A stretch of DNA of 64,000 bases from Isoetes taiwanensis (taxonomy: Eukaryota > Streptophyta > Lycopodiopsida > Isoetales > Isoetaceae). The position numbers and the translations under genes were made by a program. The stretch is from positions 4,604,224 to 4,668,223 of the forward strand of contig JAJEKV010000035.1 in NCBI GenBank assembly GCA_021234155.1, written 5' to 3'. Below, piece after piece: positions 2,026 through 54,970 of the stretch. Under the pieces are notes generated by a model that worked only from the letters and a program-made list of their open reading frames with translations, ran no database searches and was not told the origin of the DNA. The first letter of the stretch is position 1. Every line of letters starts with the position of its first letter.

Positions 2026-3665
2026 TGTGACGGTCCAGGGGAATATACGCTATAAATACGTATATTCCTGGATCCGTCACTATACAAGTCTATCATTCAT
2101 AGCCTTGTATACCATAAGGGTGGCACTAGGGGGCATGGCCAAGTTATTCTCATAACTTAGCCAACCATAGGGTAAGCCATTATCCACGTGGCCTTAACCT
2201 ATTGGGGCACCGCCACACAGGACTCACCCGATTGGTGCCACGTGGCATCCTAGGTGGACCTAACTTATATAGGCATAAACCCTAACCCTAGACCTCTTTC
2301 CAGCCCTAGCACCCAGAGACTCACCTACTCGTTCGAAACCCCGCGTTTGAACATCGCTCGCAATGGCATAGGGTGGTGCGGCAGCCCCAGCCAGGTAGAC
2401 CCGCTCTTGGAGGAGGAACAAGAAAGTTGTGAGTCGGCGACTATGGAGGCTGGATCCGGAGGGAGAGCATCGGGAGCAGGTATGTAGGGTAGTAGTTGTG
2501 ATAGCTCATCTGGAATTAGCATTCCAGGTGTGCTAGTATTTTGTATCTAGAGTAGAGCCATCCTAGAACCCATATTCAACATCTTGAACCCTAATCAAGG
2601 AACCCTAACTATTAGTTAGTTGTATGATTAGGTTAAGATGTTCTTCTTATGATTATTCTCATGATGTGATGATTATATGTTGATGGTTGATCATGTTTGC
2701 TCCTCTTGTATTGGGAAGGGGGGTAGAGACCTAGGGCCATATGTAGTATGTTCCTAGAGTAGATCCCTTAGTTCCTATTAGATGCGGCCTGTGCATAGGA
2801 GCCCACCAGGCTATCGAGGCTATGATGTGACTCAGCACCACATAACGGGGCTAGAGGGAATGTGGAGGGAGGATCCCTGCCGAGTGGGGGCTTCGGGGGA
2901 TCCCATAGTGGGCTAGGCCTATGGTCGGTCACTTCGTGTGGGCCGAGCATGGGTCTGACACCTCCTGGGGCAATGGTGTCGCCCTGCCTCTCGAGAGCTG
3001 CAAGTGTTGGCTTGGCTCGCTTTGGGGGTTAAGTCGGTGCGAATCGTGGTGTCGCCACGCGATTCTCTAGCCGCCCACGGAACCTCTAGACCCTGGGAAG
3101 GGGAGATGCAACCCTTCCTGCCTCATCGGACCAGGGAGATGCAACCTGGAGTAGTCCTGATGGGTGATGCCATGGGATTGCGTCTCCGGAAGGCTAGAGT
3201 CATGCCAGAGCCTGATTTAGCCCATCCGCAAAGTATGCAATGTGAGGGGCGGATGGAGTGGTCAACCCTAGCCATTGTCTATAGCCAGCCCCGCCATTGT
3301 TATGACTCGGTCTGCTCTATCTTGAGGCCTAGCCCCGTCGGTCACCCTCCCACGAGCCCGGAGCCATGGGTAGGAGCTCTTATGTTTTATGGCTTAGGAT
3401 TATCTTCCTTGCATTGGTTGTGGATATGTGATGGACTACCCTTCGAGGTAGTATGTTGTATTGTTATTGCTAGTTCTCGACGTTGTTTATGCTTCCGCTG
3501 CGATAGGAGCCCATAGGGAAGGGCGCAAGACACCTTCAGTGTCCCCCCCCGCACTGTGATTCTCTCGAGTGCGGGTTAGATCGAGGGCCCATGCGGTTGA
3601 TGGACCGGATGGGGATTTCTGCCGAAAGTGTACGGCCGGCCAGATATTTAGCGGGAGGAGCCACA
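2026..3665 (+). repeat. 5' LTR of the chromovirus
   Basis: 1640 bp, TG...CA termini, paired with 13520-15162. Large blocks (for example about 2480-3010) are nearly identical to the 3' LTR, while short stretches near 2341-2460, 3020-3080 and 3540-3665 differ by clustered substitutions and indels. The 3' end here reads GAGCCACA where the 3' LTR has GAGCGTCACA, so the terminal inverted repeat TGTGACG...CGTCACA is damaged in this copy. Confidence 0.95.
2184..2272 (+). promoter_or_regulatory. Putative U3 promoter: two G-boxes and TATA
   Basis: Two copies of CCACGTGGC lie at 2184-2192 and 2238-2246. A TATA-like TTATATAGG follows at 2264-2272, about 20 bp downstream of the second. The same three sites are conserved in the 3' LTR (13678-13686, 13732-13740, about 13758-13766). 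CACGTG is the core bound by plant bZIP/bHLH factors in abscisic-acid, light and stress responses. That this drives the element is inference from spacing. Confidence 0.5.
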
Positions 3666-3666
3666 A

Positions 3667-3683
3667 TGGTATCGAGCGATGTT
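3667..3683 (+). other. Primer binding site, initiator-Met tRNA type
   Basis: One base after the 5' LTR the sequence TGGTATCGAGCGATG resembles the initiator methionyl-tRNA complement TGGTATCAGAGCC, with one base missing inside CAGAGC. Position and match identify it as the minus-strand primer site. The small lesion may weaken priming. Confidence 0.75.
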
Positions 3684-4236
3684 CTTGGTTGACCAAGAAC
3701 CAGCACCCACCACAACCATGAAGTAGTCTAACAGCCTATAGGGGTGTGAAATAAACGTTTCCACCATCGAACCGCCAAAAATGGGGGAAAATTTTCTCCT
3801 AGGTAGTGGGTCGACTTAGGTTAAGTGTTAGACGAAAGTTAAGTGAGTCAAACTCATCTTCTAGTAAAATTGGAGTGAAAATCATGCATCTGCATCAAAT
3901 TTCACCTACAATGGGTCGAAGAATCATCCCAATCGGAGACCCAGGTGAAAAATGGCGCAAATCCATAATTCACACTTCAAACCATTAGGAAATTGGAAAT
4001 TTCAAAGGTATAATACGAATTTTTAGGTGTATTAAGAATTAAACATATATTAAAATTAAGGGTACTATGGGGTAATTAATAAGGGGGGCTAATAAATAGG
4101 GGTAATTATGGTAGGAGAATATTCTCAGGGACCCTCCTCTTTAAATATCCCTGACACCTCATTTTCTCTCTCCAACCCTACACCTCCACCTCTCTCTTGA
4201 CCAGCCTATCCCCACCCGTTTTCTAGACCGTTAAGT

Positions 4237-4845
4237 ATGGCCAGGACCAAACAGACCTACAGGAAGCCAGGACAGCGCCCCACACTTTCGATGGCGAACC
4301 TAGCGGCGGGACGCCATGTGAAGAAGATCCCGGAGCACCTCCGACCCAAGAAGGGGGAAGAGGAGCTCCCCCCTACCAGCAGCAGCAGCGACGGCACCTA
4401 TCACGATGCCGAGAGCAGCCCTTCGTCGGCAGGAACACAAAGAACCGACGAATCCCGCCACTTCGGGGCCACAGACACCGAAGTGGAAGAGGAGGAGGAA
4501 GAGCAAGTCCAGCAGCAGGTGGACGAAGCGGGGCCTTCGGTGCCCAAGAAAAAGGGCAAGGAGAAGGTCACTGAGTGGCCAGAGGAGAGGGCAGCTAGGA
4601 GAAAGAGGGAGCGTGAGGAGGAGTTGCGGCGGCAGGAGCGGAGGACGAAAAGAAGGAACGACGGTCCCCGCCGAACCGTCGTCATCGAGGAGCCTCCCCG
4701 CCGGGAGGAGGAGCAAGTGGAACAAGTGGAGGAGGAGGAAGAAGAACAGGAGGAAGGGGCAGAACCGAGACCACCTTACCCAGTGTGGCCCACGCCACCT
4801 AAGGTGGTAAAGAAGCGTATATGGCGAAGCTGGCCTTCGCTTTGA
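4237..4845 (+). CDS. Chromovirus 5' ORF1 with histone H3-like N-terminus
   Basis: 202 codons in the leader region of the retrotransposon. The ATG has a strong context (A at -3, G at +4). The protein opens with M-ARTKQTYRKPGQRP. Residues 2-10 match the histone H3 tail ARTKQTARK at eight of nine positions, keeping the equivalents of R2, K4, R8 and K9; similarity ends there. Residue 2 is Ala, so methionine removal would expose an H3-like alpha-amino end. The remainder is low complexity: Ser-rich (about 47-75), Glu runs (about 82-92, 155-175) and Lys/Arg-rich stretches with nuclear-localisation character (about 104-150). After the stop the reading sense seems to continue in other frames to about 5070 (segments YMAKLAFALKEDRFYRR and YNDWYCRQNVQRTVEGG), so the 3' half is frameshifted near 4800 and 4870. 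I know no family for it. A chromatin-targeting or reader-decoy role is only a hypothesis. Confidence 0.7.
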   Translation: MARTKQTYRKPGQRPTLSMANLAAGRHVKKIPEHLRPKKGEEELPPTSSSSDGTYHDAESSPSSAGTQRTDESRHFGATDTEVEEEEEEQVQQQVDEAGPSVPKKKGKEKVTEWPEERAARRKREREEELRRQERRTKRRNDGPRRTVVIEEPPRREEEQVEQVEEEEEEQEEGAEPRPPYPVWPTPPKVVKKRIWRSWPSL

Positions 4846-5092
4846 AGGAGGACCGCTTCTACCGGCGCCCTCCAAGGCATACCAAGAATACCTTCGTCGG
4901 TGGACAAGGTATAATGATTGGTACTGCCGGCAGAACGTCCAGCGCACCGTGGAAGGAGGCCGACCGCCAAAGAACCAGCCGAAGCCACCGCCGCCACAGC
5001 CCGAGAAGCCGAATAAGACCCACCATGGGCCTAACTCGGGTACACACCTTGGTGTCCGAGATTAGACACTTTCAACAAAGGCACTAATCTCC

Positions 5093-6093
5093 TTATTAGA
5101 AGGCACCCTTTGAGCCACTCATGCGGGAGGTGATGCGCCAGCCACACCGACCACAGAGTGACGCCCCTCACAACTCCTGTGTTGCAAGTAGCCGAGGCCG
5201 AGCTCACCCAGCTTGTTTGAGGAAGGGAACCTCTGCGCATCCACGCCAAGAGGGTGACTTTGATGCCCAAGGATATACACTTATGCCACCGCATCCGCAA
5301 AGGAATACCCTTGAGGATGCATTTTGTCCAAAGTAATGTAATCATTAAGTCTCCCATAAATATAAAATTTTGTTGTAAAGTGACTTCAATTTTGTATAAA
5401 AATGTGTTTGGGTTGCTCAAATTTTAGTTTAGTTGTAGCCATCATGACCGTAAAGCATCCAAATAGAAAAATTTAGTAAGAGTACTATAGGCAAATTAGT
5501 CAAATTTAAATGAAACACCAAAATCGGAAGGGTGTCTTGAAACAGCCATTCCGTCCCCTTGACCTGAAGAAGGCCCAAATTAAACATAGCCATCCGGTTT
5601 TCGCCATGTTTGCCCAGATTTTGCCAAATTAGCCCAAGTAAACATCCAAATTAGGTTAGAAAATCCTAATTAAGCATGCTAGGACCTTCAAATTTCCCAA
5701 AATTGATTATAGAACTGCCAAACACCCGAAATCGGAAGGGTGTGCGAAAACAGCCTTTCCGTCCTTGGCTAAGGCCCAAATTGCATAGCCACCCTAAGCC
5801 ATTCCGCTTTTGCCTAGAATTACCAATTTTCACCCAACAAACCGCCATGTAGTATTTCTTGCTTTGCTTTGTCTAGAATTGCACTTCATGGTAGCTCATT
5901 TGGACACCCAGGGCCATAGATTTGGAGTCTTCCCCATCAAGAACCTTTGTGTGCACTAACCCGAGGCACCCTTAGTCTATAAAAAGGGCCCTCATTTGTC
6001 ATTTTCTCCCCATCAGAACTGCTCCTAGCTCTCTTGGCGATTTTCTAGCTCCTTGCTTATTCTCCTTAGCCATTTTTCATACTCCTTACAACT
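5093..6093 (+). other. Leader/spacer between ORF1 and ORF2 with a diverged duplication
   Basis: No convincing coding sequence. Two related blocks, about 5517-5610 and 5713-5815, share AATCGGAAGGGTGT, AACAGCC(A/T)TTCCGTCC, GGCCCAAATT and CATAGCCA in the same order, offset by about 205 bp, so this spacer contains an old tandem duplication. About 5975 onward (TATAAAAAGGGCCC near 5979) resembles a core promoter ahead of the ATG at 6094, which could give ORF2 its own transcript; this is inference. Confidence 0.5.
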
Positions 6094-7617
6094 CAATGGC
6101 GCCATCAAGCTTTGTTAGATGGTACAATGAGGCAAATCACATCCGTGAATTCCCCGCTGAGCAAGCCTTCCATGTCTTCGATCATCACTTTGACCTTCAT
6201 GCCACCCTGACCAGAACTCCCTACTACACCGATATAATTTTGCCAAGATGATCGCCAGGTCTTACCACAGGAAGTTAGCTTGCCACCTAGGGGAGGGAAA
6301 TGGGTTTCTCTAGATTCTCTTGCTCAAGCCATAGGTGGGGGATCCAGGGGCAAGAATAAGTTATGGGATAGAACCAGAAACATGCCAGACTACATGACCT
6401 GTAAGCATCATAGGCATAGGTACGTCTCAAACCAAGCAGCCTTAGCTTTGTTCATGCAGTACAGGGCAGTTAACCAACCAGGAGAACCGTCAATTCAACC
6501 TTTGGATTTGGCACCTCTCGACACTCGGGCAGCACAGATAAGCATCCAGGAGATCCAGACCACAGCATACGAACACTACGGCTCCACATCAGAGACAACT
6601 GTGTGGCAGAGGGAGCAGGATTATGAGGAGGAAGAAGAGGAGAACCCAAGTTGGGAGATAAGGGAAGCAGAAAGGATGGAGAGGCGCCTAGCTCGACAAC
6701 AAGAAGCGCTGAGGCGAGACTTCGAGCCACCAAGGGGCATCACGAGCCTCACTCCGGTGATCATCGAGGGTGAGGAGTACATACTCGCCAACGACATCCT
6801 CAACCTCCCCTATTGTCAAGAAGAAGGCCTCAGGGTCGACGAACTCCTAAGCCTAATGGCGAAAGAGCAGGGCAGCGACTTCATCGACTATGATTATCAA
6901 GAAATTCCAAGGGAGGTGGCGGAGCGACACTCCTATGCAGGGGATACTATGTCAGACATTCAAGCCTACCAACAGATAAGGCAGATGTACCAGCAGCAGC
7001 AACCCATCATCCCAGAAGAGGAATTCCAAGAGATACAAAGCAGGTTGTACAAGCCAGGGAAAAGGCCAAGCTCAAGCTCAAGTCGACCAGTGCGCTCTAG
7101 AAGCATGCGGGAAGCACCTGGTAGTATCAATCTGGAGAACGCGGCAACAATGTGGAGGGACCACGAAGATCTCGTCGCACTAGATGTTTTCGGTGAAGCT
7201 GCTCAGAGGAGGGGTACGGGAACTGCGACTGGGGGCAGGGATAAATCACTTAGGTACTATCTCCCGGTCCTTAGCCAGGGGCAGATGGTAGTTCTTCACA
7301 AGGAGTTCAGCCCAAGAGGGGAAGAATCCGTCGCGCTCCTAATCGCACTCTCAGGGTTCGGTCAGCACGCTAAGATGGATTATGGAGTAGACCATGTCAT
7401 CCTCTTCAAGAGATCAGTAGCACTTCACGCTCTTGACTTCGCAAGGGGCCACCTCAGGGACGCGCACTTGTCAGTAGTGGCGGCAACTGCACCAGAACTC
7501 CCAGCACCACAGGTAGCAAGAGCATTGGAGGGAGGATCGGCGGCTAGAATCCTGCAGAACATGGGAAAGGGCACAGCATACAAGAAAATCAAGAACTTCT
7601 TCAAGCGACATCATTGA
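6094..7617 (+). pseudogene. Chromovirus 5' ORF2, unknown protein, frameshifted near its start
   Basis: The longest open stretch is 6238-7617, with no usable ATG near its beginning. An ATG at 6094 opens a 52-codon frame starting MAPSSFVRWYNEANH that ends at 6251, where the downstream frame takes over. A single-base lesion near 6245 best explains the pair, giving an original product of about 510 residues. Visible in it: an acidic run (EEEEEENPSWEIREAE) followed by an Arg/Glu helical segment, Gln-rich stretches (QQIRQMYQQQQ), a Ser/Arg patch (SSSSSRPVRSRS), an Ala-rich C-terminal third and a basic tail ending KKIKNFFKRHH. There is no zinc knuckle, protease or polymerase motif. It lies sense-oriented between PBS and gag, an unusual place for an extra ORF in chromoviruses. 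I do not recognise it; a captured host sequence or a second structural protein are both possible. Confidence 0.6.
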
Positions 7618-7939
7618 TGGAAGAATTGTCTCATAAGATTTAAGTATATTGTAATTCTTTCTTAAGTATTATCATGAAGTCTATTAAATGTATTCCTATA
7701 TACTAATTAATGTATCACTATGATTTTGACTTGTAAATGAAAATTTCATATGATTTCTTTCGTACCTAACAACAATTTACTTGTAAGCAAAAATGATCGT
7801 TGCCTAACCTAATAACATATATTAATGATCAATCCTTGCAGCAAGGAACTCAAGTGCAGGGTCTCAGGACCAGCACCGACCACGCAATTGGGTACCAAGG
7901 AACTTGTTCGGCAGAGAGCAGGAAGACTTTGAGCAGGAT

Positions 7940-10849
7940 ATGTCACCAGAGGCAGTTAATGCAAGGTTGGTACAGATGAGGAATCAGATGCAACACCTCA
8001 TCAACTGGGCGACACCTCTCATGAATGCACAGGAAGATGGTCCTCCGCCTCCACCTTGTGTTCCGGGTGGTGACGAAGTCCCTCAGCAGGAAGGGGAGGG
8101 CAACCACGGCAACGTCAGGGACAAGAGACGAAGAAGGAGAACCAGGAGTCCATCATCATCTAGTTCCAGCTCATCAGATAGTTCTTCCAGTGACGACAGC
8201 TCTAGCTCCGACAGTGAGTCTGACACACCTAAGGCAAGAAAAAGGGCAAGAAAGACGGATGACTATCAGAAAAAGGTGGATAGTGCTATGAGCAATGTGT
8301 GGAAGACAAGGAAGCTGGGCCAGTTTTCAGGGAAAGACAGATCAGGCATGGAGGCTGAAGCATGGCTGGATGAAATGGAAGAATTTGGCAACTCATACGG
8401 TATGAAAGACAAGGACATAGGGAAAGTTGCTACAGCTAACCTTATTGGACCGGCAAGGATCTGGTGGAAGGGATATGCTAAGTCCAACAAGCTGAAGAGG
8501 AATAATTGCAGGTTTAAGACCTTCAGCAAGGCTTTCCGCAAGCACTATGTGCCGAGGTCTCATACTAGTAGACAGATTCAGCAGTTTTACAGGTTGAATC
8601 AGGGTACCTTATCAGTGGCTAAGTATACCGAAGAATTCATGAGACTTAGACTTCATGTCCCGGGAGTATCAGAAAGGCAAGCAGTGGACACCTATATTGA
8701 GGGGTTGAACAGCAATATCAAGAGGCTTGTTAGAGCAATCAACCCAAGGTCAGTTGCAGAGGCCGAAGATAAAGCTATAAGTTTGGAGGAGGCACCAGCA
8801 ACTCCAGCAGAGAAGCAGTCAACCTTCAGGGGTAAGAGTTCAGGGCAGTATCAGGGACAATATCAGGGTAAGCAATCAGCAGCTACACCATCAGGGAGTC
8901 AGCAGCAAGGTAAGGATAAGAGCAAAGCTTTTGGGGACCGTAAGCCACAGAATGCATCAGGAGGCAGTGCTCTCAAGCGTCTCCTAGACAGTCTGCCGAA
9001 GGAAAAGAGACAGGAATGCATTGAGAAGAAGTTATGCTTCAGGTGCTTCCAGCCAGGGCACAGAACACATGATTGCCCATTCGTCATGCAGTCAGCCTTG
9101 GCAGAGCTTATGGATTGGGACTCCCCAACAGAAGCGGACGAGGACGATGAACAGCAGGAGGCCCAGGACTTCATAGATGGTGAGTGTCACATATGTGCAA
9201 ACATTGAGTCAGGTGATATAGAGAATCAGTCAACGGTCATTGCGGCTGAGGGAATCATAGATAGTAAGCCATATGTAGTCCTCATAGACACAGGTAGCTC
9301 TCATAATTTTGCATCTCCTAGATTGGCCGCTCTAATGAAGAACAAGGTATTGAAGTCTAAGCCAAGGCCAGTAGCTATGGCAAACGGCGCCATCCGGCAC
9401 ACTAAGGGGAGGAGAATCATCTTTGACATAGACCTTAGTGGGGCTAAATGGCCGATGGGAGCAGAAGTCATGGATATTGGAAGGTATGATCTTATTGTGG
9501 GGATGGAATTCTTGAAGCCAGCTAAAGCAGTAATTGATTGTGACCGGAACGAAGTCACCATGACGGCACCGGACGGCAACAAGTTGATAGTCAAAGGTAA
9601 GAAGCTAGATTCTCCCATGCAGTGTATTTCTTTGAAGCAGCTAAGGAAGAGTATAGAAAGGAATAAGGTGGATTACATCTTGAGGATGGAATCAGTTGAG
9701 CCAGGCAAGCAGGATGGAAGTGACACAAAGGGAAATCAGCTGCCCAGGCAGATAGCAAGGCTTATTTCAGAGTTCAAGGATGTATTTCCGGATGAAATCC
9801 GGCAGCTGCCACCTTATAGGGGTGTGGAATGTGAGATCACATTGGCTCCAGATGCGAAGCCTACCAGTAAGGCGCCATATAGAATGAGCATCCCAGAATT
9901 GACGGAGCTCAAGAAACAGCTGAAGGAATTGCTCGAGCTTGGATTTATAAGAGCAAGTGTGTCTCCTTTCGGAGCACCCATACTCTTTGTCAAGAAGAAA
10001 GATGGGAGCTTAAGAATGTGCATAGACTATCGCCAGCTCAATAAGCAGACGATAAAGAATAGGTATGCATTGCCAAGGGCGGATGACCTAATGGATCAGC
10101 TACAAGGAGCAAAGGTATTCTCTAAGATTGATTTAAGATCAGGATACCATCAGATAAGAATAAAGGAAGAGGACATCCATAAGACTGCTTTCAGAACGCG
10201 GTATGGTCATTTTGAGTTTACAGTAATGCCCTTTGGATTGTCAAACGCTCCCGCAACGTTTATGCGCCTCATGAACGATATCTTCAGAGACTTCTTGGAT
10301 GAGTTTGTCATTGTCTTCTTCGACGACATCCTAATCTACAGCAAGTCCCTTGAGGAGCATTGTCAGCATCTCAGGAAAGTGTTGGAGAAGTTGAGACGTC
10401 ATCGGTTGTATGGGAAGCTCTCTAAGTGCCACTTTGCAACAGGCCGGGTGGAGTACTTGGGGCATGTAGTAACATCCGAGGGAATCTCCACAGATCCATC
10501 TAAGATTGAGGCAATAGTTGATTGGCCAGCTCCAAGGAATGTGGCAGAAGTAAGAAGCTTTCTCGGGTTGGCGGGATACTACAGAAAGTTCGTGAAGGAC
10601 TTTGCTAAGTGGGCGTCCCCTTTGTCGGACCTCACTAAGGCCAAGAAGATTAAGGATTGGGCTAGCCATTGGTTAGAGGAAGTCCAAGCTTCTTTTGAGA
10701 AGCTTAAAGAGGCCTTAACAACAGCACCAGTGCTTGTTCTCCCGGATCCGAGTAAGGATAAGTTGATAGCAACAGATGCAAGCAAGATAGCAACAAAGGC
10801 GATCTTGATGCAAGAAGGAAGGGTAGTCGCCACGACTCAAAGAAGATGA
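7940..10849 (+). CDS. Gag-protease-reverse transcriptase polyprotein, truncated by TGA in RNase H
   Basis: First in-frame ATG is at 7940. The frame is open back to 7829, where a TTGCAG splice-acceptor-like site lies at 7835-7840, so a spliced start is possible. From ATG 7940: Ser-rich acidic linker (about 70-110), retrotransposon gag domain (about 125-270), CCHC knuckle [14 protein letters not shown] (about 366), aspartic protease with [11 protein letters not shown] (about 445), reverse transcriptase from about 600 with FFDDILIYS (about 793), and the RNase H start LIATDAS (about 945). It would make virus-like particles and copy the RNA. The frame stops at 10847. Around the stop another frame reads SKKMNDAA, part of the conserved RNase H segment before QRYPTHDREL, and the original frame resumes after about 10858. 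A one-base loss near 10830 and a one-base gain near 10858 therefore bracket the lesion. Confidence 0.95.
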
Positions 10850-11335
10850 ACGACGCCGCAGCAACGCTACCCAACCCATGATCGGGAGCTCCTAGCCATT
10901 GTCGGGGCATTGAGGATATGGAGGCATTATTTGGTCGGGAAGGAAGTTTCGGTTAGATACTTCATCACCGAGCCTTCAAGATCTTTTCACCCAGCCACTC
11001 TCAACTTAAGGCAAAGGAGGTGGATGGAATTCCTTGAGGAGTACGATTTTGATATTATATATAAGCCTGGTAAGCTTAATGTTGTAGCAGATGCCCTCTC
11101 TAGGAGGCCATTTCAGACAAGGACGCATTGTAATGCGATTTCCACTCTTTCGAGTGAGTTTGGCAAGAAGATTGAGGAGTCCTTGCCAACCGATGTGGAC
11201 TTCAAGGAGGTGTGGGAAAGCCTCTCCAAGGAAGCCAGAACAGACAAGGAGCGGGAAGCCTTCAAGCATTTTAAAAAGGAAGGCAACCTGTTGTACCACA
11301 AGCATAAGTTGTGTGTGCCCGAATCTTCGGGGTAA
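10850..11335 (+). pseudogene. RNase H C-terminal part and linker of pol
   Basis: Same frame as the upstream polyprotein, separated from it by the TGA at 10847. It contains QQRYPTHDRELLAIVGAL, then RYFITEPSRSF, WMEFLEEYDFDIIYKPG and VVADALSRRPF, the standard Ty3/gypsy RNase H end (the last D of the active site lies in NVVADALSR). It continues into the linker before integrase and ends at 11335 just after KLCVP, where the frame must shift by one base to enter the integrase frame. This marks a second lesion in pol. Confidence 0.9.
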
Positions 11336-12657
11336 GGAAGTTAATTCTTCATGACACACATAATGTTCCAATAGCGGGGCATGCTGGCTTCATGAAGACC
11401 TATTTCAAGATTCGAAGTAGTTACTTCTGGCCAGGAATGAAGAGGCAGATAGCTGCATATATTCGGGATTGCCAGTTATGTCGTGAGACCAAAGGCGAGC
11501 AACCTGGCGATTCCGGTGCTTTAGAGCCATTGGGGGTGCCAAATGCAAAGTGGGAGGTCATAAGCATGGATTTCATCACAGGACTCCCTAGAACTCTTCG
11601 AGGCAAGGATGCATTGATGGTTGTCGTAGATAAGTTATCTAAGATGGCACATTTCGTGCCTTGCAAGACGACAGACACCGCATTAGACACTGCCAAGTTA
11701 TTTGTAAGGGAGATTTTTAGACTCCATGGCATGCCTCGGGAGATAATATCTGATAGAGATTCTAAGTTCATGAGTGCCTTTTGGCAGGATCTCTTTAGCA
11801 CCATCCAGACGAAACTCTCCATGAGTACGGCGTATCATCCTCAAACAGATGGCCAGACGGAAAGGACCAATCGGATCATTGAAGACATGCTTCGAAGCTA
11901 TGTGTGGAACAAGCAGTCCAAGTGGGATGAGTACATTCACTTGGTGGAATTCGCCTACAACAGTGCCAAGCAGGAGTCATCTCAGATGTCGCCTTTCATG
12001 GTGAACTACGGCTACCAGTGCTTAACCCCGGATACCTGGCACAATCCTGTGTCCAAGGTAGAAGTGTCCCAACAGATGTTAGGGGATATGCAGCAACTAG
12101 TAGAGGAAGTAAGGGGTTATTTATTGGCAGCAAGAAGTCGGCAGAAGAGTGTAGCCGACAAGCACAGGACCGTAAGGGAGTTTAAGGTGGGAGATACCGT
12201 TTGGTTGAAGATCAAGGTGAAGCAAGCCAAGCTGCGGATTGGGAGCTGCAAGAAGCTTGCCCCTAGGTGGGCTGGGCCGTTCAAGATTTTAGAGAGAGTG
12301 GGCTCTCAAGCCTATAAGTTGGATCTTCCAGCCCATCTTAAGGTCCACAAGGTCTTCCACGTAAGTTTATTAAAAAGGCACAATCCTAACCCTGAGGAGG
12401 TTTTGGATACTCCAACCTTGTTGGAAATGACGGAGGAGCAAGTAGAAATAGTGCCTGAATTGCTTCTTGATAAGTCATTCAAGAAGACTAGGAGGTCTCA
12501 GTTCCTCCAATATTTGGTTAAGTGGAAGCACTTACCCGTGGAAGATGCGACATGGGTATTGAAGCAAGACTTGGAGAAGCAATACCCAGAGTTTATGAAG
12601 GAGTTTGATGGGCGAGTCGTCTCCGACTTGGTCGACCCCGACTTGCCAGGTGGTTAG
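11311..12657 (+). CDS. Integrase with C-terminal chromodomain
   Basis: 448 codons. The first few residues are probably out of frame; homology begins about residue 9 (RKLILHDTHN). Zinc-binding HHCC: H17, H24, C54, C57. Catalytic DDE: D87 (ISMDFITGLP), D148 (IISDRDSKF), E184 (HPQTDGQTERTN), with a D-x35-E spacing. GPF module: LAPRWAGPFKILE (about 320), then HPVFHVSLLK-like VFHVSLLKRH. A chromodomain follows in the last 75 residues (YLVKWKHLPVEDATW). Integrase inserts the cDNA; chromodomains of chromoviruses recognise methylated histone H3 and direct insertion to heterochromatin. All catalytic residues remain, but the protein would need the broken upstream pol frame. It ends at a TAG at 12655. 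Confidence 0.95.
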   Translation: MCARIFGVRKLILHDTHNVPIAGHAGFMKTYFKIRSSYFWPGMKRQIAAYIRDCQLCRETKGEQPGDSGALEPLGVPNAKWEVISMDFITGLPRTLRGKDALMVVVDKLSKMAHFVPCKTTDTALDTAKLFVREIFRLHGMPREIISDRDSKFMSAFWQDLFSTIQTKLSMSTAYHPQTDGQTERTNRIIEDMLRSYVWNKQSKWDEYIHLVEFAYNSAKQESSQMSPFMVNYGYQCLTPDTWHNPVSKVEVSQQMLGDMQQLVEEVRGYLLAARSRQKSVADKHRTVREFKVGDTVWLKIKVKQAKLRIGSCKKLAPRWAGPFKILERVGSQAYKLDLPAHLKVHKVFHVSLLKRHNPNPEEVLDTPTLLEMTEEQVEIVPELLLDKSFKKTRRSQFLQYLVKWKHLPVEDATWVLKQDLEKQYPEFMKEFDGRVVSDLVDPDLPGG

Positions 12658-12683
12658 CTAGTATGTTGTTAGTTAGCTTTGAG

Positions 12684-13100
12684 CCTGGCGCATGCATTCT
12701 AGTTAGAAGGGTGCATGTGCCAGAACCTTGGATCGTGTGGGCGATGATGGGATACGCCTTTAGGGCATTCTCTAGGCCACACGCACCAATAGGTGCGCAT
12801 GACCATTAGGGTCATGTGAGTGAGGAATGAGGCATAGTGGGCGATGATGGGACATCGATCGGATAATCTCTATGCCACGATGCGGGATACGCACACCTGG
12901 CCGTAGGAGGGTCATGGTGAAGCTTAAGTGATCATGCGCGATGATGGGATCGTGAGACGTTCCCTAGCTGAAACCCTCGGGGCATGATGCACTGGGGTGT
13001 ACTCGATCCAGGGGGGATCGTGTACAAGGTAGCACTCGATCATGGGCAATGATGGGAACATCTTAAATGATCCCTAAGCTCAAATCCGAAAGGGCCATGA
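12684..13100 (+). repeat. 3' noncoding array of four ~100-bp imperfect repeats with hairpins
   Basis: The motif GCGATGATGGGA or GCAATGATGGGA recurs at 12741, 12841, 12938 and 13046, spaced 100, 97 and 108 bp. Each is followed by a diverged segment carrying short inverted repeats, such as TGGCGCATGCA...TGCATGTGCCA at 12688-12722 and CATGACC-atta-GGGTCATG near 12798. No coding frame runs through it. It sits between pol and the polypurine tract, where packaging or RNA-stability structures are conceivable, but no function can be read off. Confidence 0.7.
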
Positions 13101-13503
13101 TCTTGGGCAAGGTAGTAGGACAACCTTGAGCCAGTAGTTCGGCTCAAGGAGGTAAGGGGGGTGGTCCCCTAAAACCACAAATTATTAACTAAACTAACGT
13201 AATGTGCTCCTTTGCGTGCAAGTAGAAGGGGGGGACTTCAAACGGGAGCGTATTACGAGAAGATAGGGGAGCCATAATTTAGATTATGAACCCTAATAAC
13301 ACTTATAATAGTATTTTGTATTATCGTAAAAAAATATGATGTTAAGGCTATATAATTTTGTATAAGTACAAATATAGCCTAAATTTTGACTTTTTACTAA
13401 TAAAACTTGATTGCTAAAGTAAACTAAAGGTTATGACATGTTGTTGTTTTTGCAGGCATAAGGTAGGTTCGTCACCTTAGCGCAATGCTGAGGACAGCAT
13501 TGT
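13101..13503 (+). other. 3' untranslated region upstream of the polypurine tract
   Basis: AT-rich, without ORFs. Part of it (GGTGGTCCCC...ACCACAAA, about 13160-13200) and the segment just before the polypurine tract reappear in reverse complement at 54610-54970, which ties the 53-55 kb element to the same family. Confidence 0.7.
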
Positions 13504-13519
13504 CCTAAGGGGGGGAGAA
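13504..13519 (+). other. Polypurine tract
   Basis: CTAAGGGGGGGAGAAT directly precedes the TGTGACGG of the 3' LTR. This is the expected plus-strand primer of an LTR retrotransposon. Confidence 0.9.
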
Positions 13520-15162
13520 TGTGACGGTCCAGGGGAATATACGCTATAAATACGATATTCCTCGATCCGGCCACTATACAAGTCTATCATTCATAGCCTT
13601 GTATACCATAAGGGTGGCACTAGGGGGCATGGCCAAGTTATTCTCATAACTTAGCCAACCATAGGGTAAGCCATTATCCACGTGGCCTTAACCTATTGGG
13701 GCACCGCCACACAGGACTCACCCGATTGGTGCCACGTGGCATCCTAGGTGGACCTAACTTATATAGGCATAAACCCTAACCCTAGACCTCTTTCCAGCCC
13801 TAGCACCCAGAGACTCACCTACTCGTTCGAAACCCCGTTTCGAACATCGTTCGTTGTGGCATAGGCTGGTGCAGCAGCCCCAGCAGGGTAGACCCGTTCT
13901 TGGAGGAGGAACAGCAGGTTGTGAGTCGACGACTATGGAGGCGCCTGGATCTGGAGGGAGAGCATCAGGAGCAGGTATGTAGGGTAGTAGTTGTGATAGC
14001 TCATCTGGAATTAGCATTCCAGGTGTGCTAGTATTTTGTATCTAGAGTAGAGCCATCCTAGAACCCATATTCAACATCTTGAACCCTAATCAAGGAACCC
14101 TAACTATTAGTTAGTTGTATGATTAGGTTAAGATGTTCTTCTTATGATTATTCTCATGATGTGATGATTATATGTTGATGGTTGATCATGTTTGCTCCTC
14201 TTGTATTGGGAAGGGGGGTAGAGACCTAGGGCCATATGTAGTATGTTCCTAGAGTAGATCCCTTAGTTCCTATTAGATGCGGCCTGTGCATAGGAGCCCA
14301 CCAGGCTATCGAGGCTATGATGTGACTCAGCACCACATAACGGGGCTAGAGGGAATGTGGAGGGAGGATCCCTGCCGAGTGGGGGCTTCGGGGGATCCCA
14401 TAGTGGGCTAGGCCTATGGTCGGTCACTTCGTGTGGGCCGAGCATGGGTCCGACACCTCCTGGGGCAATGGTGTCGCCCTGCCTCTCGAGAGCTGCAAGT
14501 GTTGGCTTGGCTCTCGTTTTGGGGGGTTAAGTCGGGTACGAATCGTGTGTCGCCACGATTCTCTAGCCGCCCACGGAACCTCTAGACCCTGGGAAGGGGA
14601 GATGCAACCCTTCCTGCCTCATCGGACCAGGGAGATGCAACCTGGAGTAGTCCCGATGGGTGATGCCATGGGATTGCGTATCCGGAAGGCTAGAGTCATG
14701 CCAGAGCCTGATTTAGCCCATCTGCAAAGTATGCACAGGAGGGGCGGATGGAGTGGTCAACCCTAGCCATTGTCTATAGCCAGCCCCGCCATTGTTATGA
14801 CTCGGTCTGCTCTATCTTGAGGCCTAGCCAGTCAGTCACCCTCCTTACGAGTCGGAGCCATGGGTAGGAGCTCTTATGTTTTATGGCTTAGGATTATCTT
14901 CTTTGCAGTTGTGGATATGTGATGGACTACCCTTCGAGGTAGTATGTTGTATTGTTATTGCTAGTTCTGACGTTGTTTATGCTTCCGCTGTGATAGGAGC
15001 CCATAGGGGAAGGGCGCGCAAGACACCTTCGTGTCCCCTGCCCGCACCAGGATTCTCTCAGAGTGCGGGTTAGACGGAGGGCCCATGCGGTTGATGGACC
15101 GGATGGGGGATTTCCTGCCGAGTGTACGGCCGGGCGCCGTATATTTAGCAGGGAGCGTCACA
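13520..15162 (+). repeat. 3' LTR of the chromovirus
   Basis: 1643 bp, TGTGACGG...CGTCACA with an intact terminal inverted repeat, followed by target duplication TATAG at 15163-15167. It keeps the two CCACGTGGC boxes and TATA of the 5' LTR. Differences from the 5' copy include small indels near 13837-13970 and 14515-14560. Confidence 0.97.
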
Positions 15163-15167
15163 TATAG

Positions 15168-20884: not shown

Positions 20885-21835
20885 GAAATAGGATAAAAGT
20901 GATGTGATGTGATGTGTGGTGTCGTGATGGTGTGGTGTGGTGTGGTGTCGTGATAGTGTGGTGTGGTGTGGTGTGGTGTGGGTTGCGTTATGTCCATGGT
21001 GTCATGTGGGTGTGTGCATGTTAATGTATGATCTGGAGAATCTCCCCCCTCACCCCACCACACCCCATCTATCCCACCACCATAGACTACCACCACATCT
21101 TTAAGACCACCACCACACCACCACCACATGCACACACATCCCACCACATCCCACGCCACACCCCTCCACCACCACCACCACACTCCACCACCACCACATC
21201 ACACCACAATCCACAACACCACACCACACCACCACCACCACTACCCCCCACCACACCCACCACCACCACACTCCACCACACACCACCACCACCACCACAC
21301 CCCACCACCACCACACCACATCATAGCACCACACACCACTACACACACCACCACCACCACCCCCACCACCACACACACACACCACTCCACCACACTCCAC
21401 CACCACCACGCCCCACCACCACACCACACACCACTCCACCACACTCCACCACCACCCCCCCACCACACCCCCCCCACCACCACCACACACCACTCCACCA
21501 CCCCCCCCACCACGCCCCACCACCACCACACCACACACCACTCCACCACACCCACCACCACCCCCACCACCACCCCCACCACCACCACACACCACTCCAC
21601 CACCCCCCACCACCACAATCCACCACCACCACCCCCCACCACCACACTCCACCACCACCACACTCCACCATTTGGTGTATGGTGTGTGGTGAATGGTATG
21701 GTGTGTGGTGGGGTGTGGTGTGGTGTGTGGTAATGTACACAGCACTAAGGTGCTCGTTCTGGTGAATATGATGAGTGTGGGGCATGGTATGGTGCATGGT
21801 TTGGTGTGGTATACACATCCTAACAGTTTAGTGTT
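20885..21835 (+). repeat. CCA/TGG satellite array, left copy
   Basis: TG-rich GTGGTGT repeats (about 20900-21015), then 620 bp of CCACCACCA/CCACACCA repeats (about 21050-21670), then TG-rich sequence again to about 21810. It lies in the intron between transposase exons ending at 19795 and starting at 21848. The long Pro/His/Thr or Gly/Val/Trp translations of this array are meaningless. A mirror-image array lies at 35770-36470. Confidence 0.95.
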
Positions 21836-35769: not shown

Positions 35770-36470
35770 TGGAAAACCACAATCATACACCACACAACAC
35801 AAGGTAGTCTCTACACACCACCACATACCACACACCACACAACATACGCTGCACAGTACACACCACACAACACACTGTGGTGGTGGTGGTGGTGTCTGTG
35901 ATGGTGGTGGTGGTGGTGGTGGTGTGGTGGTGGTGGTGGTGGGGTGTGTGGTGGTGGTGGAGTGTGGTGGTGGTGGAGTGTGGTGTGGGACATGGTGGAG
36001 TGTGGTGATGGGGTGTGGTGTGGTGGTGGTGGAGGTGGGGGTGTGGTGGTGGGGTGTGGTGTGGTTGTGATGGAGTGTGGTGATGGTGGATTGTGGTGTG
36101 GGACATGGTGGAGTCTGGTGGTGGAGTGTGGTGTGGGACATGGTGGAGTGGGGGTGTGGTGGTGGGGTGTGGTGTGTGGTTGTGGTGGAGTGTGGTGGTG
36201 GTGGATTGTGGTGGTGGATTGTGGTGTGGGGACATGGTGGAGTCTGGTGGTGTAGTGTGGTGGTGGTGGAGTGTGGCGGTGGTAGAGGAGTGTGGTGGTG
36301 GTGGTGGAGTGTGGTGGTGGTGGAGGAGTGTGGTGATGGTGGTGGTAGAGTGTGGTGGTGGTGTGTGGCGTGGGAGTGTGGCGGTGGGAGATGGTAGAGT
36401 GTAGTGGTGGGAGATCGTGGGGTGTGGTGTGGGACATGATGGATGCCAACAACTCACCACCACCACACAT
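35770..36470 (-). repeat. CCA/TGG satellite array, right copy (mirror image)
   Basis: ACCACAC-rich sequence (35780-35865), then about 590 bp of TGGTGGTGG/GTGTGGTGG (35870-36460). It is the reverse complement in arrangement of the array at 20885-21835. It probably lies in an intron of the minus-strand coiled-coil/RING frame, so in both arrays the CCA strand is the sense strand of the host gene. Confidence 0.95.
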
Positions 36471-36669
36471 ACCTCATCTATCATTCTGGCATCCATTGCA
36501 CGAAATGCCCCACAGATGGCATCATAGAGACACAACATGACAATACAGCCAACATGATGCAAAATGGTAGTAGACATACCTGATTCTTGAAGTGGATTTG
36601 ATGTTACCTTTTCTATGTTGATAGAAACAATCTAGATCAAGCTTGAGATTTTTTTCTGTTGTAACACAA

Positions 36670-39482: not shown

Positions 39483-39648
39483 GTCTGAGTTCTAGCTAAC
39501 TCTTTGTGCTATAATATAATTTTTTTTTCCATTTCGAGGTTCATGCTTGGGATTTCAACTCCAAGATTGAAGATCTAGACTGTTAGTGCTACTTGAAAAA
39601 TGGCCAGTGCTCGAGCTTGGTCAACTAAGATCATGGCTCTGATACCAT
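39483..39648 (-). other. Internal remnant and PBS of a minus-strand LTR element
   Basis: GGCTCTGATACCA at 39635-39647 is the exact reverse complement of the 13-nt initiator-Met primer site TGGTATCAGAGCC and abuts the LTR at 39649. Only about 150 bp of internal sequence remains before LINE sequence begins. Confidence 0.8.
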
Positions 39649-40912
39649 TGTGATGCCCCTGCTGACACGTATAGAACTGGAGTCCATCCCTCCTATCAGT
39701 GCAAGCCCGCTAAACATGAGGCCAACTACCTATCATCGGGCTCTTGATGGTGAGGAAGAACCCATCAAGGCAGAATAGACGTGTTGTTCGTCCCATCTCC
39801 CTTGGGATCTACCTAGTTGTGGAAGCACATAAAACATGAGCACATGGCATCTCATAGAATACATATCCACTTCGAAGGGTGACTCACCATAACACAACAT
39901 CTGAAACAACAACATCAGTAGCATCAACAAAGAGGAGAAATCCTACCCAAGGCTCAGACTCATGGGGATCGACTGACGGCTTGGGGTCTCCAAAAGTCAA
40001 TGCAGACAGAATTCATAAGAATGGATTTGGTTGGCACAGAACATGGTCGTTGGGTAGTCTACTCTGTCCGCCCCTCCTGTAAATACTTTGCAGATAGGCT
40101 GCTAAGTATTGGGAATGTGACCGTAGCCTGCCGGATGCATAGTCAGAGGGACTACTCCTGGGTTGCATCTCCCCATTCCCGATGAGGCAGTCAGGAGGGG
40201 ATTACTTCCCCCCAAAATTTATATGCCAACTACAGGCGAGCTAGAGAGCCACTGCTCGTACACGATTTGAACCTCACTAAGGCGACACATCACCCAGGAG
40301 GCCCATACCTTGCACACTCAATGGCAAGCTATTAGGCCTAGCCCACAACATTTCCCGGCCATCGCTACGCACCAGAGGGATCAACTGTAGCCGGACAAGC
40401 CTTCCTTTTCAGCCGATCTAACCCTGTCACCCACAACTAGGCTATCTAGACACATCATCTATGAAGGCTCTAAGGCTCTAGAGCCTTTTTAAGGCTCTAG
40501 AGCCTCTAAGGCCTCTAGAGCCTTTCTAGATCCTCTAAGGCTAAGAAAGGACGCAAACTCGGCTTAATGCTGGTCAAGAAACTAGCATTGCATAACAGAT
40601 TCTTGGCTCGCTCCTCTGATGACATCCATGCTGGCGGAATGGCTCGAGATGGTCGAGTCTTGACGATCCGCTTGGGAATGCAAGCTCCACGGGTTTCTAA
40701 CATGACGCTTTTAGGCTTGGAATCTAAAAGGTCACTTAGGGCTCTGCCACGTGGCAAAGGGTATATGCACATGTTAATGGGGACGTGTACAATATAATGG
40801 TTCCATCGGTTGTACCCTAGTTGCCGTGTACATGTCGTTGGGGTCGAGATGTACTAGTGATGCAGTAATATAATATATGTTTTCATACCATATATTATGT
40901 TGGGACATCACA
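39649..40912 (-). mobile_element. LTR (1264 bp) of a truncated retrotransposon, minus orientation
   Basis: Bounded by TGTGATGCCCC on the left and GGGACATCACA on the right, the inverted termini of an LTR. The PBS beside the left edge shows it is a 5' LTR transcribed right to left. Its partner LTR and coding region are missing. Layout and short shared strings suggest a distant relation to the 53.2-kb LTR. Its right edge lies exactly where homology to copy A starts (40913), so the element interrupts the Merlin remnant of copy B. Confidence 0.85.
40464..40540. repeat. Palindrome cluster AAGGCTCTAGAGCCTT
   Basis: Within the minus LTR, AGGCTCTAGAGCCT and near copies occur about four times in 77 bp, each self-complementary. 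They could fold into hairpins in the LTR transcript (terminator-like or polyadenylation-associated), or simply be an expanded palindrome. Confidence 0.85.
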
Positions 40913-47729: not shown

Positions 47730-49034
47730 TTGATTCTTTTACCCCATGATTCTTTTACCTATGATTGGCATCTCTTTAACAATTTTTGTTTTCCTCCACC
47801 ATCCTTAGTTCCCCGTTTTACACCATGCGGCCGGTGTCATGCTCGTATTACTTTGGTGGTTCTTCATTGGCCCTCTGCACTATATGGTGGCCCCTGCTCT
47901 GGACGGGATCGGCATGGGCGTCCTTTATTAGGGATTTTATGTTTTTTGATGCATTTTCGTTGGCTTTATTGCCCCATATATCGGCGCCCTTTGCGGGGTG
48001 TCGGCATCATGTGGCTCTTTATATTTTTCGTTGTCAATTTAATTAAATTTAACATGGTTTTATGTTTTTTTGTGGCAGCTACCTCTCGCTTACTTACTTC
48101 CCAGGAGGTCCCCTTGTTCCTCTCTACTTTACCTTTGGTGTTTTCCTCCCGCGCCCTATCCACCCTCACGGCTTACATAGCTATGTTCCGCCGCTTTATT
48201 GCTTGGTGCCGTATACATGATGTTTCCTATTCCCTGCTTCCCCATTCATCGTCGCAGCCTTTTTCGCCTCTCTTCATCATCTTGATATGTCGCCCTCGTC
48301 CATTACTTCGGCCTCAGCAGCAATATTTTTTTTCATCAAATTTTCAACCTTCCCTCCCCCGCGGTTTTACCTTTACCGTCCTTGGCTCATCAGTCTACCT
48401 CCCGTCGGGCCCGCCCCCTCCGCACCTTTCTTCCCCTCCTTCTTCAGCATGTACGCTCTATTGTTCTCCATTTCGCGCATCCCACGGCCCCATCCCCTCT
48501 TTGGCTCGCGTTGCCCTCATCGTGCTTTCCTTTGCAGCTTTTTTGCGCATCTCCGAGGCCCTTGCACTCAATTGGCGCGATCTCTCATTTTCCTTGTCTC
48601 ATGTTGATATTCTTATACGCCATTCCAAACGAGACCAACTTGCCCGCGGTCATACGATTACTTTAGCTCGTTTGCCGTCACTCGCATGCCCCGTAACTAT
48701 TCTCCAGCGTCTGATTTCCACGGGTTCTTATCATCTCCTAGACCCTCCGTCAGGCGGCCCTCTTTTTCGCACCTCTCCCTCCTCTCTGCGCCCCTTATTC
48801 TATTCGACTGCCCGCTTATGGTGGAGGAATTGTCTTCTCGCTATCGGCTTGGATCCATTCCAATATGGTACACATTCTGCTCGTCGCAGTGGGGCCTTGG
48901 CAGCTGCGGCTGGGGGAGTTCCACATGATGTTGCTCGCGCTCACAGTTGCTGGGACTCCTCTTCTTCTCACTCTCGCTACGTGCTTCGTGACCCAACTCA
49001 ACACTTGGAGGTTTCGCGGTGGCTGGGCTTATAG
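47730..49034 (+). pseudogene. DIRS/Ngaro-type RNase H end plus tyrosine recombinase
   Basis: 434 open codons. The first part (YDWHLFNNFCF, then RITLVVLHWPSA with WWP in a neighbouring frame) resembles the RNase H tail of DIRS/Ngaro retroelements. The tyrosine recombinase starts about 48080: SRALSTLTAYIAMFRRFIAW is the SAM-like core-binding domain, then a frame change (about 48260-48500) carrying DMSPSSITSASAAI. The catalytic domain is in frame: R273 (FAAFLRISEALALNW), K300 (IRHSKRDQLARGH), H382 and R385 (GTHSARRSGALAAAAGG), W in SCWDSSSSH, Y in SRYVL. All five catalytic classes (R-K-HxxR-W/H-Y) are present. Such elements integrate by recombinase rather than DDE integrase. The RT is missing and the N-terminal half is frameshifted, so this copy is dead. 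Crypton is an alternative for the recombinase alone, but the RNase H-like prefix favours DIRS/Ngaro. Confidence 0.75.
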
Positions 49035-53239: not shown

Positions 53240-54609
53240 TGTGACAGTAATAATGTCAAACTGTACAAATATACATATTGTGTAGCATATTTACAAGTCA
53301 AGCTAGTGTTTGGGGACGCAGCTGATCCCGCACATCCATTACCTTTTAGAGGTATGATCCCAGCATTCGTACTGAAGACATGTGATGCTCCCCACCAAAT
53401 ATACGACGCCCCGTCGTACATCTCGTGGAAAATTCCCCATCCAGCACTCTGGCCGCATGGGCCCCCCGTTTACCCCGCAGCTAAGATATCCTTGTTGTGG
53501 GAAGGGGACATGCACGCGCTTCCCCTATGGGCTTCTATAATAACTGGAAGCATAACATAACGTCAGCACTAGCAATAACAATACATCTACTACCACGAAG
53601 GGTAGCACATCCATACAACCATAGATACATCAAAGATAATAACATATCGTCAAACATATGAGTCCCTATCCAGGCTCAGACTCGTATGGGAAGTCGATTA
53701 ATGGCTGGGCCTCAAGATAGAGCAGATCGTGATATAACAATGGTGAGGCTGGCTATATGGGTCCCCAGTAGCCGCGCTTAGCAGGGAACTCCCTCTGCTT
53801 TGCCACTAGCCCCGTTGTATGGTGTTAAGTCACTCCATAGCCCCATAGCCGGGGTTCCTATGCACATGCCGCATCTAGAGGAGGATCATCTAAATAATGG
53901 CTACTAGGTCCCTACCCCCCTTCTCAATACAAGAGGAGCAAACATGATCAACCAACATCATATATCCACAGAGCATGATACATAGAGAATAACATCTAAT
54001 CCTAATCACATGCATCTAACTTACAGTTAGGGTTCATTGATTAGGGTTCAAGACCTAGATTATAGAATGTCTCTACTAGAGATATGAAATGCTAACTCAT
54101 CTGGAATCCTAACTTCCAGATGATCTACAAAGGACTCTAATCCAAATACCTGCTCTTGAAGAACTCCCTCTTGCTCCCAGCGTCTCCACGGCCTTCCGGG
54201 GGTTTGAAGTAGCTCCCACTCCTACCGATGCGTGCACGCTCCGGGGGCTGTTGTGCTATGCTATACCACAGCAGAAAGTTCTCGAAACGGAGTCTCGAGC
54301 GCGAACAAAGTTCCAAGGCTGTTGGAGCCAGAAAAAATGGCCTAGGGTTAGGGTTTGGCCATTTATAGATTAGGGTTCCATGTCAGTGCCACATGGCTCC
54401 AATGGGGTGCTTCCATATGGAGGGGTGCCGAATAGGGTGAGGCCATGTGGAAATGGCCCTATGCCTAAGGTTGGCTAAGTTATACGAATAACTTAGTCAT
54501 GCTCCCTTTTCCACCTACTATGGTGTACAAGGCTACTAAAGTAGACTTGTACAGTGACGTGGCCCAGAAATATACGTATTTATAGCATATATTTCAGGGG
54601 AAAGTTACA
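53240..54609 (-). mobile_element. LTR of a chromovirus-related element, minus orientation
   Basis: Right edge, read on the minus strand, TGTAACTTTCCCCTG, is followed by ATATATGCTATAAATACGTA, matching the start of the 2026 LTR (GGGAATATACGCTATAAATACG). Interior strings such as GTTGATCATGTTTGCTCCTC and TGTATTGAGAAGGGGGGTAG correspond to 2685-2725. The left edge TGTGACAG at 53240 is the likely 3' terminus. About 1.37 kb, diverged from the 13-kb element, same family or sister family. Confidence 0.75.
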
Positions 54610-54970
54610 TTCTCCTCCCCTTAGGATAATGCTATCCTCAACATTATGCTAAGGTGATGAATCTGTAACAACCCTGCAAAAACTCACTTTATTGAAAAGA
54701 TCAACTTCCCCTTAATTACTTATTATGTAAATTATAAGGCTATATTTATAACTTATACAAAATTATATAGCCGTAACAAGTATTATTATAAAAGTTTGCA
54801 CACATAATATGGAGTTCATAGTTAAGTCTAAAATCTATGACTCCTATCTTCTCGTAACATGCTCCCTCCTCCACGCTCTCTTTCATTGGCCTGCACAAGT
54901 AGCACATTACGTTAGTTTAATTAATAAGTTTGTGGTTTTAAGGGACCGCCCCCTTAATCTTTTTTTTTTT
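54610..54970 (-). mobile_element. 3' internal end of the same minus-strand element
   Basis: TTCTCCTCCCCTTAGG (54610-54625) is the complement of a polypurine tract. The following sequence to about 54955 matches in reverse complement the 3' UTR of the first chromovirus (13150-13503), including CACATTACGTTAGTTTAATT and TTTGTGGTTTTAAGGGACC. The rest of the element is missing; a T-rich run (54960-54973) follows. The LTR at 53240 is therefore the 3' LTR of a truncated copy. Confidence 0.75.

Follow-up and report, generated by a model that had tools for sequence, protein, structure and literature searches.

The closest precedent for a histone H3 gene carried by a mobile element is H3L, an H3-like gene of Pyrenophora tritici-repentis that sits within a hAT DNA transposon and for which ESTs are reported (PMC3538342). 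H3-like ends also occur on other proteins. The ligands named for the UHRF1 PHD finger are the ARTK of H3 and the VRTK of PAF15 (PMC8034647), and the reported Kd is 1.5 uM for the H3 peptide and 2.2 uM for the PAF15 peptide (PMC7060239). As these N-terminal mimics bind, a free H3-like end can suffice for reader binding. Such an end is not always needed, since DPPA3 binds UHRF1 through an internal VRT motif (PMC11187062). As to the mobile elements, plant Ty3/gypsy chromoviruses have in common LTRs, a primer binding site, the gag-pol order and an integrase with a C-terminal chromodomain, and the element described here shares these features.

The locus in question lies in 64 kb of Isoetes taiwanensis DNA, termed the window. 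A 202-aa open reading frame, ORF0, opens at an ATG at 4237 and ends at 4845 (+ strand), beginning MARTKQTYRKPGQRP. The original prediction of a retrotransposon ORF that starts with the H3 tail in a strong start-codon context holds, as MARTKQTYRK is the H3 tail save for residue 7, and the ATG has A at -3 and G at +4. It was also proposed that similarity to H3 then stops. This is true of the damaged window copy only; sister frames continue into a complete H3 fold. ORF0 (4237..4845) represents the front half of the element's H3 gene, where the tail is followed by a charged insert and the frame shifts after about residue 194. A relic of the H3 histone fold is found at approximately 5021..5310 (+), with HHGPNS ... 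IHAKRVTLMPKDIHL... in shifted frames interrupted by stops. By itself, the truncated ORF0 has H3 similarity past residue 9 that is no better than that of shuffled sequences. AlphaFold predicts a coil at its N-terminus, with a mean pLDDT of 62. A protein search with the 202 aa gave no homologue among 569 candidates, which is weak evidence of absence because the tool takes candidates of up to 1.75x the query length, and the full-length protein (~370 aa) exceeds this.

ORF0 is part of a Ty3 LTR retrotransposon that occupies 2026-15162 of the window and displays a TATAG target-site duplication at both ends. The 5' LTR (2026..3665, +) reads TGTGACGG...CACA and adjoins the duplication at 2021-2025; the 3' LTR (13520..15162, +) has the polypurine tract AAGGGGGGGAGAA just upstream and TATAG at 15163-15167. 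There are 39 mismatches in 1620 aligned sites between the two LTRs, plus 41 gap columns. The primer binding site TGGTATCGAGCG (3667..3678, +), read directly from the sequence, is presumably tRNA-Met-like, and TGGTATC[A]GAGC occupies the matching place in 7/7 sister loci with flanks. Gag-pol (7842..12657, +, the start being that of the splice model below) encodes capsid, protease, RT, RNase H and an integrase with SH3 and chromodomain motifs (Pfam Chromo 4.2e-11); its frame is disrupted between 10846 and 11311. All features by which a Ty3 chromovirus is recognized are found: LTRs, target-site duplication, primer binding site, gag, the PR-RT-RH-IN order and the chromodomain. A protein search with gag-pol produced a single close relative, P0002, 64% identical over 88% of the query, and IMG/VR yielded no relatives. 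The solved structures nearest to the chromodomain are Chd1-like domains. By eye, one of three HP1 cage aromatics is kept and the cage is incomplete, and binding of this chromodomain to the H3 tail is doubtful.

The gag start codon probably lies inside the LTR. A putative gag exon 1 of 37 nt (2443..2479, +; ATG GAG GCT ... CAG/GTATGT) would be in frame with gag once spliced to 7842, with a 5.4-kb intron whose acceptor would end at 7841. With gag spliced in this way, two ORFs, i.e. ORF0 (4237-4845) and a second one (6280-7617), would sit in the leader/intron. The H3 gene is placed between the LTR/primer site and gag, probably with its own promoter. A TATA-like box, TTTAAATA at 4140, and a pyrimidine-rich, ATG-free leader precede the H3 ORF (4140..4236, +). 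A TATA-like box and ATG-free leader are found before the ATG in 85 of the 90 copies starting MARTK, by a lenient rule that allows one mismatch to any of five consensus forms, one of which is the window's own. Within the window, under the rule applied to it, the + strand has such an arrangement once only, ahead of ORF0, and the - strand has one other, which heads a 56-aa frame. The LTR end, primer binding site and leader are carried by 7/7 sister loci with flanks at ~86% identity to those of the window. The second leader ORF, ORF2 (6096..7617, +), is open from 6280 to 7617, has its first ATG at 6096 in another frame and is preceded by a TATA box, TATAAAAAGG, at 5978. A Pfam scan gave no significant match and a protein search no homologue among 7,996 candidates. 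Its structure prediction is of low confidence, with the N-terminal 60 residues forming a small, fairly confident fold; residues 5-65 of the 6280 ORF are winged-helix-like at best, the best Foldseek E against the PDB, 0.12, not being significant.

Several other features were seen in the window. Remnants of related elements are present on the - strand at 53381-54953 (3' internal part and LTR, 71-75% identity) and at 39607-40190 (LTR end with primer binding site TGGTATCAGAGCC). After the latter, a relative of ORF0 was not seen and other retroelement-like code is found instead. At 47730-49034 (+), a 434-aa ORF is by eye tyrosine recombinase-like (HSARRSGA), as in DIRS or Crypton elements. Long CCACCA-rich, satellite-like stretches at 21028-21765 and 35783-36577, in opposite orientation, are open in several frames.

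Is the tail a property of the family or of one copy? The window's own genome (1.658 Gb, 1,110 contigs) was searched for sister copies. From 11,383 first-look candidates the best 150 were scored, which are the copies closest to that of the window; all 150 matched, 139 of them from residue 1. The 101 copies read consist of the window's copy, 80 that align from residue 1, 11 that align later and 9 more from residue 1, with 49 of the 139 left unread; the 11 later-aligning copies were included to offset the bias of picking copies by N-terminal match. The expectation that related copies keep the motif is borne out, and the family does not lack it: MARTKQT is present in 96 of the 101 (88 in frame as expected, 8 a few bases off). 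Among the 11 later-aligning copies it is a few bases off in 8, mutated in 2 and lost altogether in 1. The exact H3 tail ARTKQTARK is in frame in 49/101 copies and ARTKQTYRK in 32/101. In 36 clean full-length copies, residue 7 is Ala in 17, Tyr in 18 and Gly in 1, and the Ala7-to-Tyr change of the window copy is a polymorphism of the family. Of the 90 copies that start MARTK, 86 retain R8 and 85 retain K9; the residue following K9 varies among copies. Many copies of the family are broken, the window's own among them.

Copies with a frame open to the end encode ~360-380 aa, with an H3 histone fold at the C-terminal end. The layout in the 36 clean full-length copies consists of the H3 tail, a charged insert of ~230 aa (in copy L097, 232 aa with 21% K/R and 21% D/E) and the whole H3 fold. 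Pfam Histone (PF00125) was found in 4/4 full-length copies scanned (3e-29 to 7e-29), and a PDB search with one full-length copy gave H3 at 4e-31, the best 60 of 174 matches all being H3 chains. Over H3 residues 39-135, the 36 copies share 54-64% of their residues with host H3, 60% on average. All 36 agree with host H3 at R63, K64, R72, T80, D81, R83, C110-T118, M120-K122 and L126, 35 at D123 and 34 at R69; these residues include DNA and H3-H3' contacts. The canonical tail of ~44 residues (with K14, K18, K23, K27 and K36) joined directly to the fold is absent from the family. With its shortened tail and ~230-aa insert, the family therefore represents an H3 variant and not canonical H3. The earlier suggestion of a mimic of the influenza NS1 type, in which an unrelated protein bears a short tail motif, is dropped because the sister copies show the H3 fold: what the element encodes is an H3 variant that has a histone fold of its own.

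Selection was assessed by all-pairs NG86 on the 36 clean full-length copies, which were left once two with a shifted start had been removed from the 38 that the filter let through. These values apply to full-length copies, the pairs are not independent and pS, at 0.53-0.64, is near saturation; so read, dN/dS is 0.114 overall, 0.017 for ARTKQT, 0.063 for residues 2-10, 0.127 for the insert and 0.087 for the fold. The 97 of 630 pairs with pS <0.35 give, in the same order, 0.115, 0.013, 0.043, 0.134 and 0.055. R8 and K9 show no amino-acid replacement in the 36 copies. The first codons are under purifying selection, as had been anticipated, and do not evolve neutrally. ARTKQT is not uniquely conserved, as pN is equal or lower in 44 of 363 other six-codon windows; with the two misaligned-start copies included, 249 of 361 nine-codon windows have pN below that of the tail. 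Constraint covers the whole protein, which counts against a story based on the tail only.

Other H3-bearing lineages are present in the genome. A search of the genome for the Histone family, with the best 150 of 8,705 candidates scored, led to 30 loci that were read. Half of these (15/30) are host-type H3, 97.8-99.3% identical to plant H3. The other 15 carry an H3 fold and form a near-canonical family, the 7 aligned ones being 83-90% like host H3. None of the 8 frames printed for this family starts with ARTKQT, and the longer ones have a long N-terminal extension; an exposed tail is thus not needed in every H3-bearing element. L143 has LTR sequence upstream (75% DNA identity to the window's) and gag downstream (63% aa identity), L148 matches the LTR upstream and gag downstream, L147 has gag downstream and L141 has neither match. 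In a DNA-only comparison with the window element, LTR or gag matches were not found in the 1.5-kb flanks of the remaining near-canonical loci. L140 has a 122-aa H3-like frame, which shares 75% of the residues in its matched stretch with plant H3, and branches first among the near-canonical transposon H3 rows of the tree.

A further lineage (L154, L155 and L156) begins exactly MARTKQTARK. L154 and L155 are broken; L156 encodes a full-length 397-aa protein (Pfam Histone 3.3e-23) with a fold 49% identical to host H3, and upstream of this one locus are an LTR match, a primer binding site and TATAAATAG. L156 and L097 have identical first nine residues, together with a fold identical at 51/93 positions (55%) and a middle identical at 82/239. 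The sequence LIPRA[PS]F of the L155/L156 lineage is reminiscent of CENH3. With the front part of L154 as query and the best 150 of 23,862 candidates scored, frames of up to about 490 aa were obtained. In a midpoint-rooted tree of 19 short rows, which leaves 9 of 16 inner forks open and has the partial L155 row as the sole one of its lineage, the L154-L156 lineage and the window family split from host H3 and the near-canonical family (100/98). This split suggests at least two acquisitions of H3 by elements.

The predicted feature is almost certainly the N-terminus of a selected, element-encoded H3 variant of a Ty3/chromodomain LTR retrotransposon. How might such a protein act? Removal of the initiator Met would expose Ala1, and the variant would pair with host H4 and enter nucleosomes, either on DNA of the element itself or where it inserts; the chances that it enters nucleosomes are about even. 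These nucleosomes would display a tail with K4 and R8-K9 but without the K14-K27 block, the K27 silencing site included. The tail that host K4/K9 writers and readers act on would in that case be one supplied by the element, and as an outcome the element may stay expressed or choose its insertion sites. That the element draws a specific benefit from the variant is a tentative idea and leans towards the doubtful. HP1-type K9 reading needs Ala7. As Ala7 and Tyr7 are both maintained, the free ARTK end and R8-K9 are more likely to be recognized than K9 is to be read in the strict HP1 manner. Taken as a whole, the explanation of a selected, element-encoded H3 variant, its nucleosome entry and a benefit from the K4/K9 tail is considered fairly probable. 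A broader view is that, within a single plant genome, an entire group of LTR retrotransposons carries selected H3 variants, acquired at least twice, that form element-specific nucleosomes with a K4/K9 end and without the K27 site, i.e. a transposon-encoded chromatin state; its prospects are somewhat short of even.

Could the likeness of a basic N-terminus to H3 have arisen by chance? The truncated ORF0, where 274 of 1000 shuffles are as good past residue 9, points in this direction, but the sister copies bear the full H3 fold, and a chance resemblance is ruled out by their Pfam Histone and PDB H3 matches; its probability is negligible. An empirical null also argues against it. A 30-base degenerate pattern for ATG-ARTKQTxRK, run over a 257-Gb prokaryote collection, gave 13 matches, 7 of which are H3 genes. 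The other 6 head frames with a stop inside the first 32 codons, and two of these appear to be one and the same place in related genomes. The H3 genes are on seven contigs classed as bacterial (L004, L005, L007, L008, L010, L012 and L013, the gene of L012 being cut by the contig end), which for this reason are probably eukaryotic contaminants. The viral contigs of IMG/VR gave 0 matches. A base-composition model predicts 9e-7 matches per window; genome-wide, the pattern has 1,385 matches, host H3 genes counted in, vs 0 for a reversed control. Capture of genes by transposons is common, and a host H3 gene might have been captured and then multiplied as a hitch-hiker that brings the element no benefit. 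The fungal hAT H3L genes may have undergone drift, as their authors suggest (PMC3538342). Such a passenger is nevertheless highly improbable here, as whole-protein dN/dS is 0.114 in 36 copies at pS about 0.5, the tail is identical in L097 and L156 although their folds are 55% identical, and two H3 types, split by the 100/98 branch, both occur behind an LTR.

Alternatively, the protein might function as a decoy outside nucleosomes, whereby a tethered tail occupies K4/K9 readers, writers, demethylases or H3 chaperones and weakens silencing. Models for this exist in PAF15, whose VRTK end is bound by the UHRF1 PHD finger, and in the SNAG proteins, which occupy LSD1; binding of readers by H3-like ends is documented (PMC7060239, PMC8034647, PMC5896174). 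The selection on tail-coding codons, the identity of the tail across lineages and the long charged insert, as in L097, would fit. A histone fold would be superfluous in a decoy, but here it is conserved (dN/dS 0.087), with many H3-H3' and DNA-facing residues invariant in 36 copies, and we regard a decoy as unlikely. A role inside the particle, where the H3 packages element RNA or cDNA or its tail baits the integrase chromodomain, is less likely again. It is attractive in that the chromodomain and an H3 tail with K9 are encoded by the same element, but this chromodomain is closest to the Chd1 type and short of HP1 cage aromatics, and Tyr7, present in half of the 36 copies, would be expected to clash with the HP1-type Ala7 pocket.

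The preferred reading, an H3 variant that enters nucleosomes, has wider implications. Histone marks are normally directed at retrotransposons, but these elements appear to provide a histone themselves. If the protein enters nucleosomes, it would make it possible to test directly whether a mobile element can write its own chromatin, and would bear on silencing escape, site choice and the divergence of H3 with its first nine residues fixed. In such plants, transposon-encoded H3 may confound counts of histone genes as well as experiments that use H3 antibodies.

How does this element compare with known systems? In the literature searched, with most subscription papers and preprints outside its scope, no report of a histone encoded by an LTR retrotransposon was found. 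Unlike plant Ty3/gypsy chromoviruses, the window element has two extra leader ORFs, one of which is a histone H3, and its gag ATG apparently lies in the LTR, ahead of the 5.4-kb intron. Orchid Ty3 elements with an m6A RNA demethylase domain likewise carry an accessory host domain, but the domain differs and a histone is not mentioned in the available text (PMC9289625). PAF15, SNAG-domain proteins and influenza NS1 also present H3-like tails, that of PAF15 at the very N-terminus as in the element H3 and that of NS1 at the C-terminus, and the available portions of the sources describe no histone fold for them. With core histone H3, the element H3 has the fold, the C-terminus and tail residues 1-9 in common; unlike core H3, it has ~230-290 aa between tail and fold. 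The H3L of the fungal hAT resembles the element H3 as a transposon-multiplied H3-like gene with insertions in the N-terminal tail. According to its authors (PMC3538342), however, H3L belongs to a fungal DNA transposon, with 26 very similar genes in the reference genome and a suggestion of drift, whereas here there are Ty3 LTR elements, several diverged lineages, an intact tail 1-9 and measured selection. The element H3 is far from this nearest known example.
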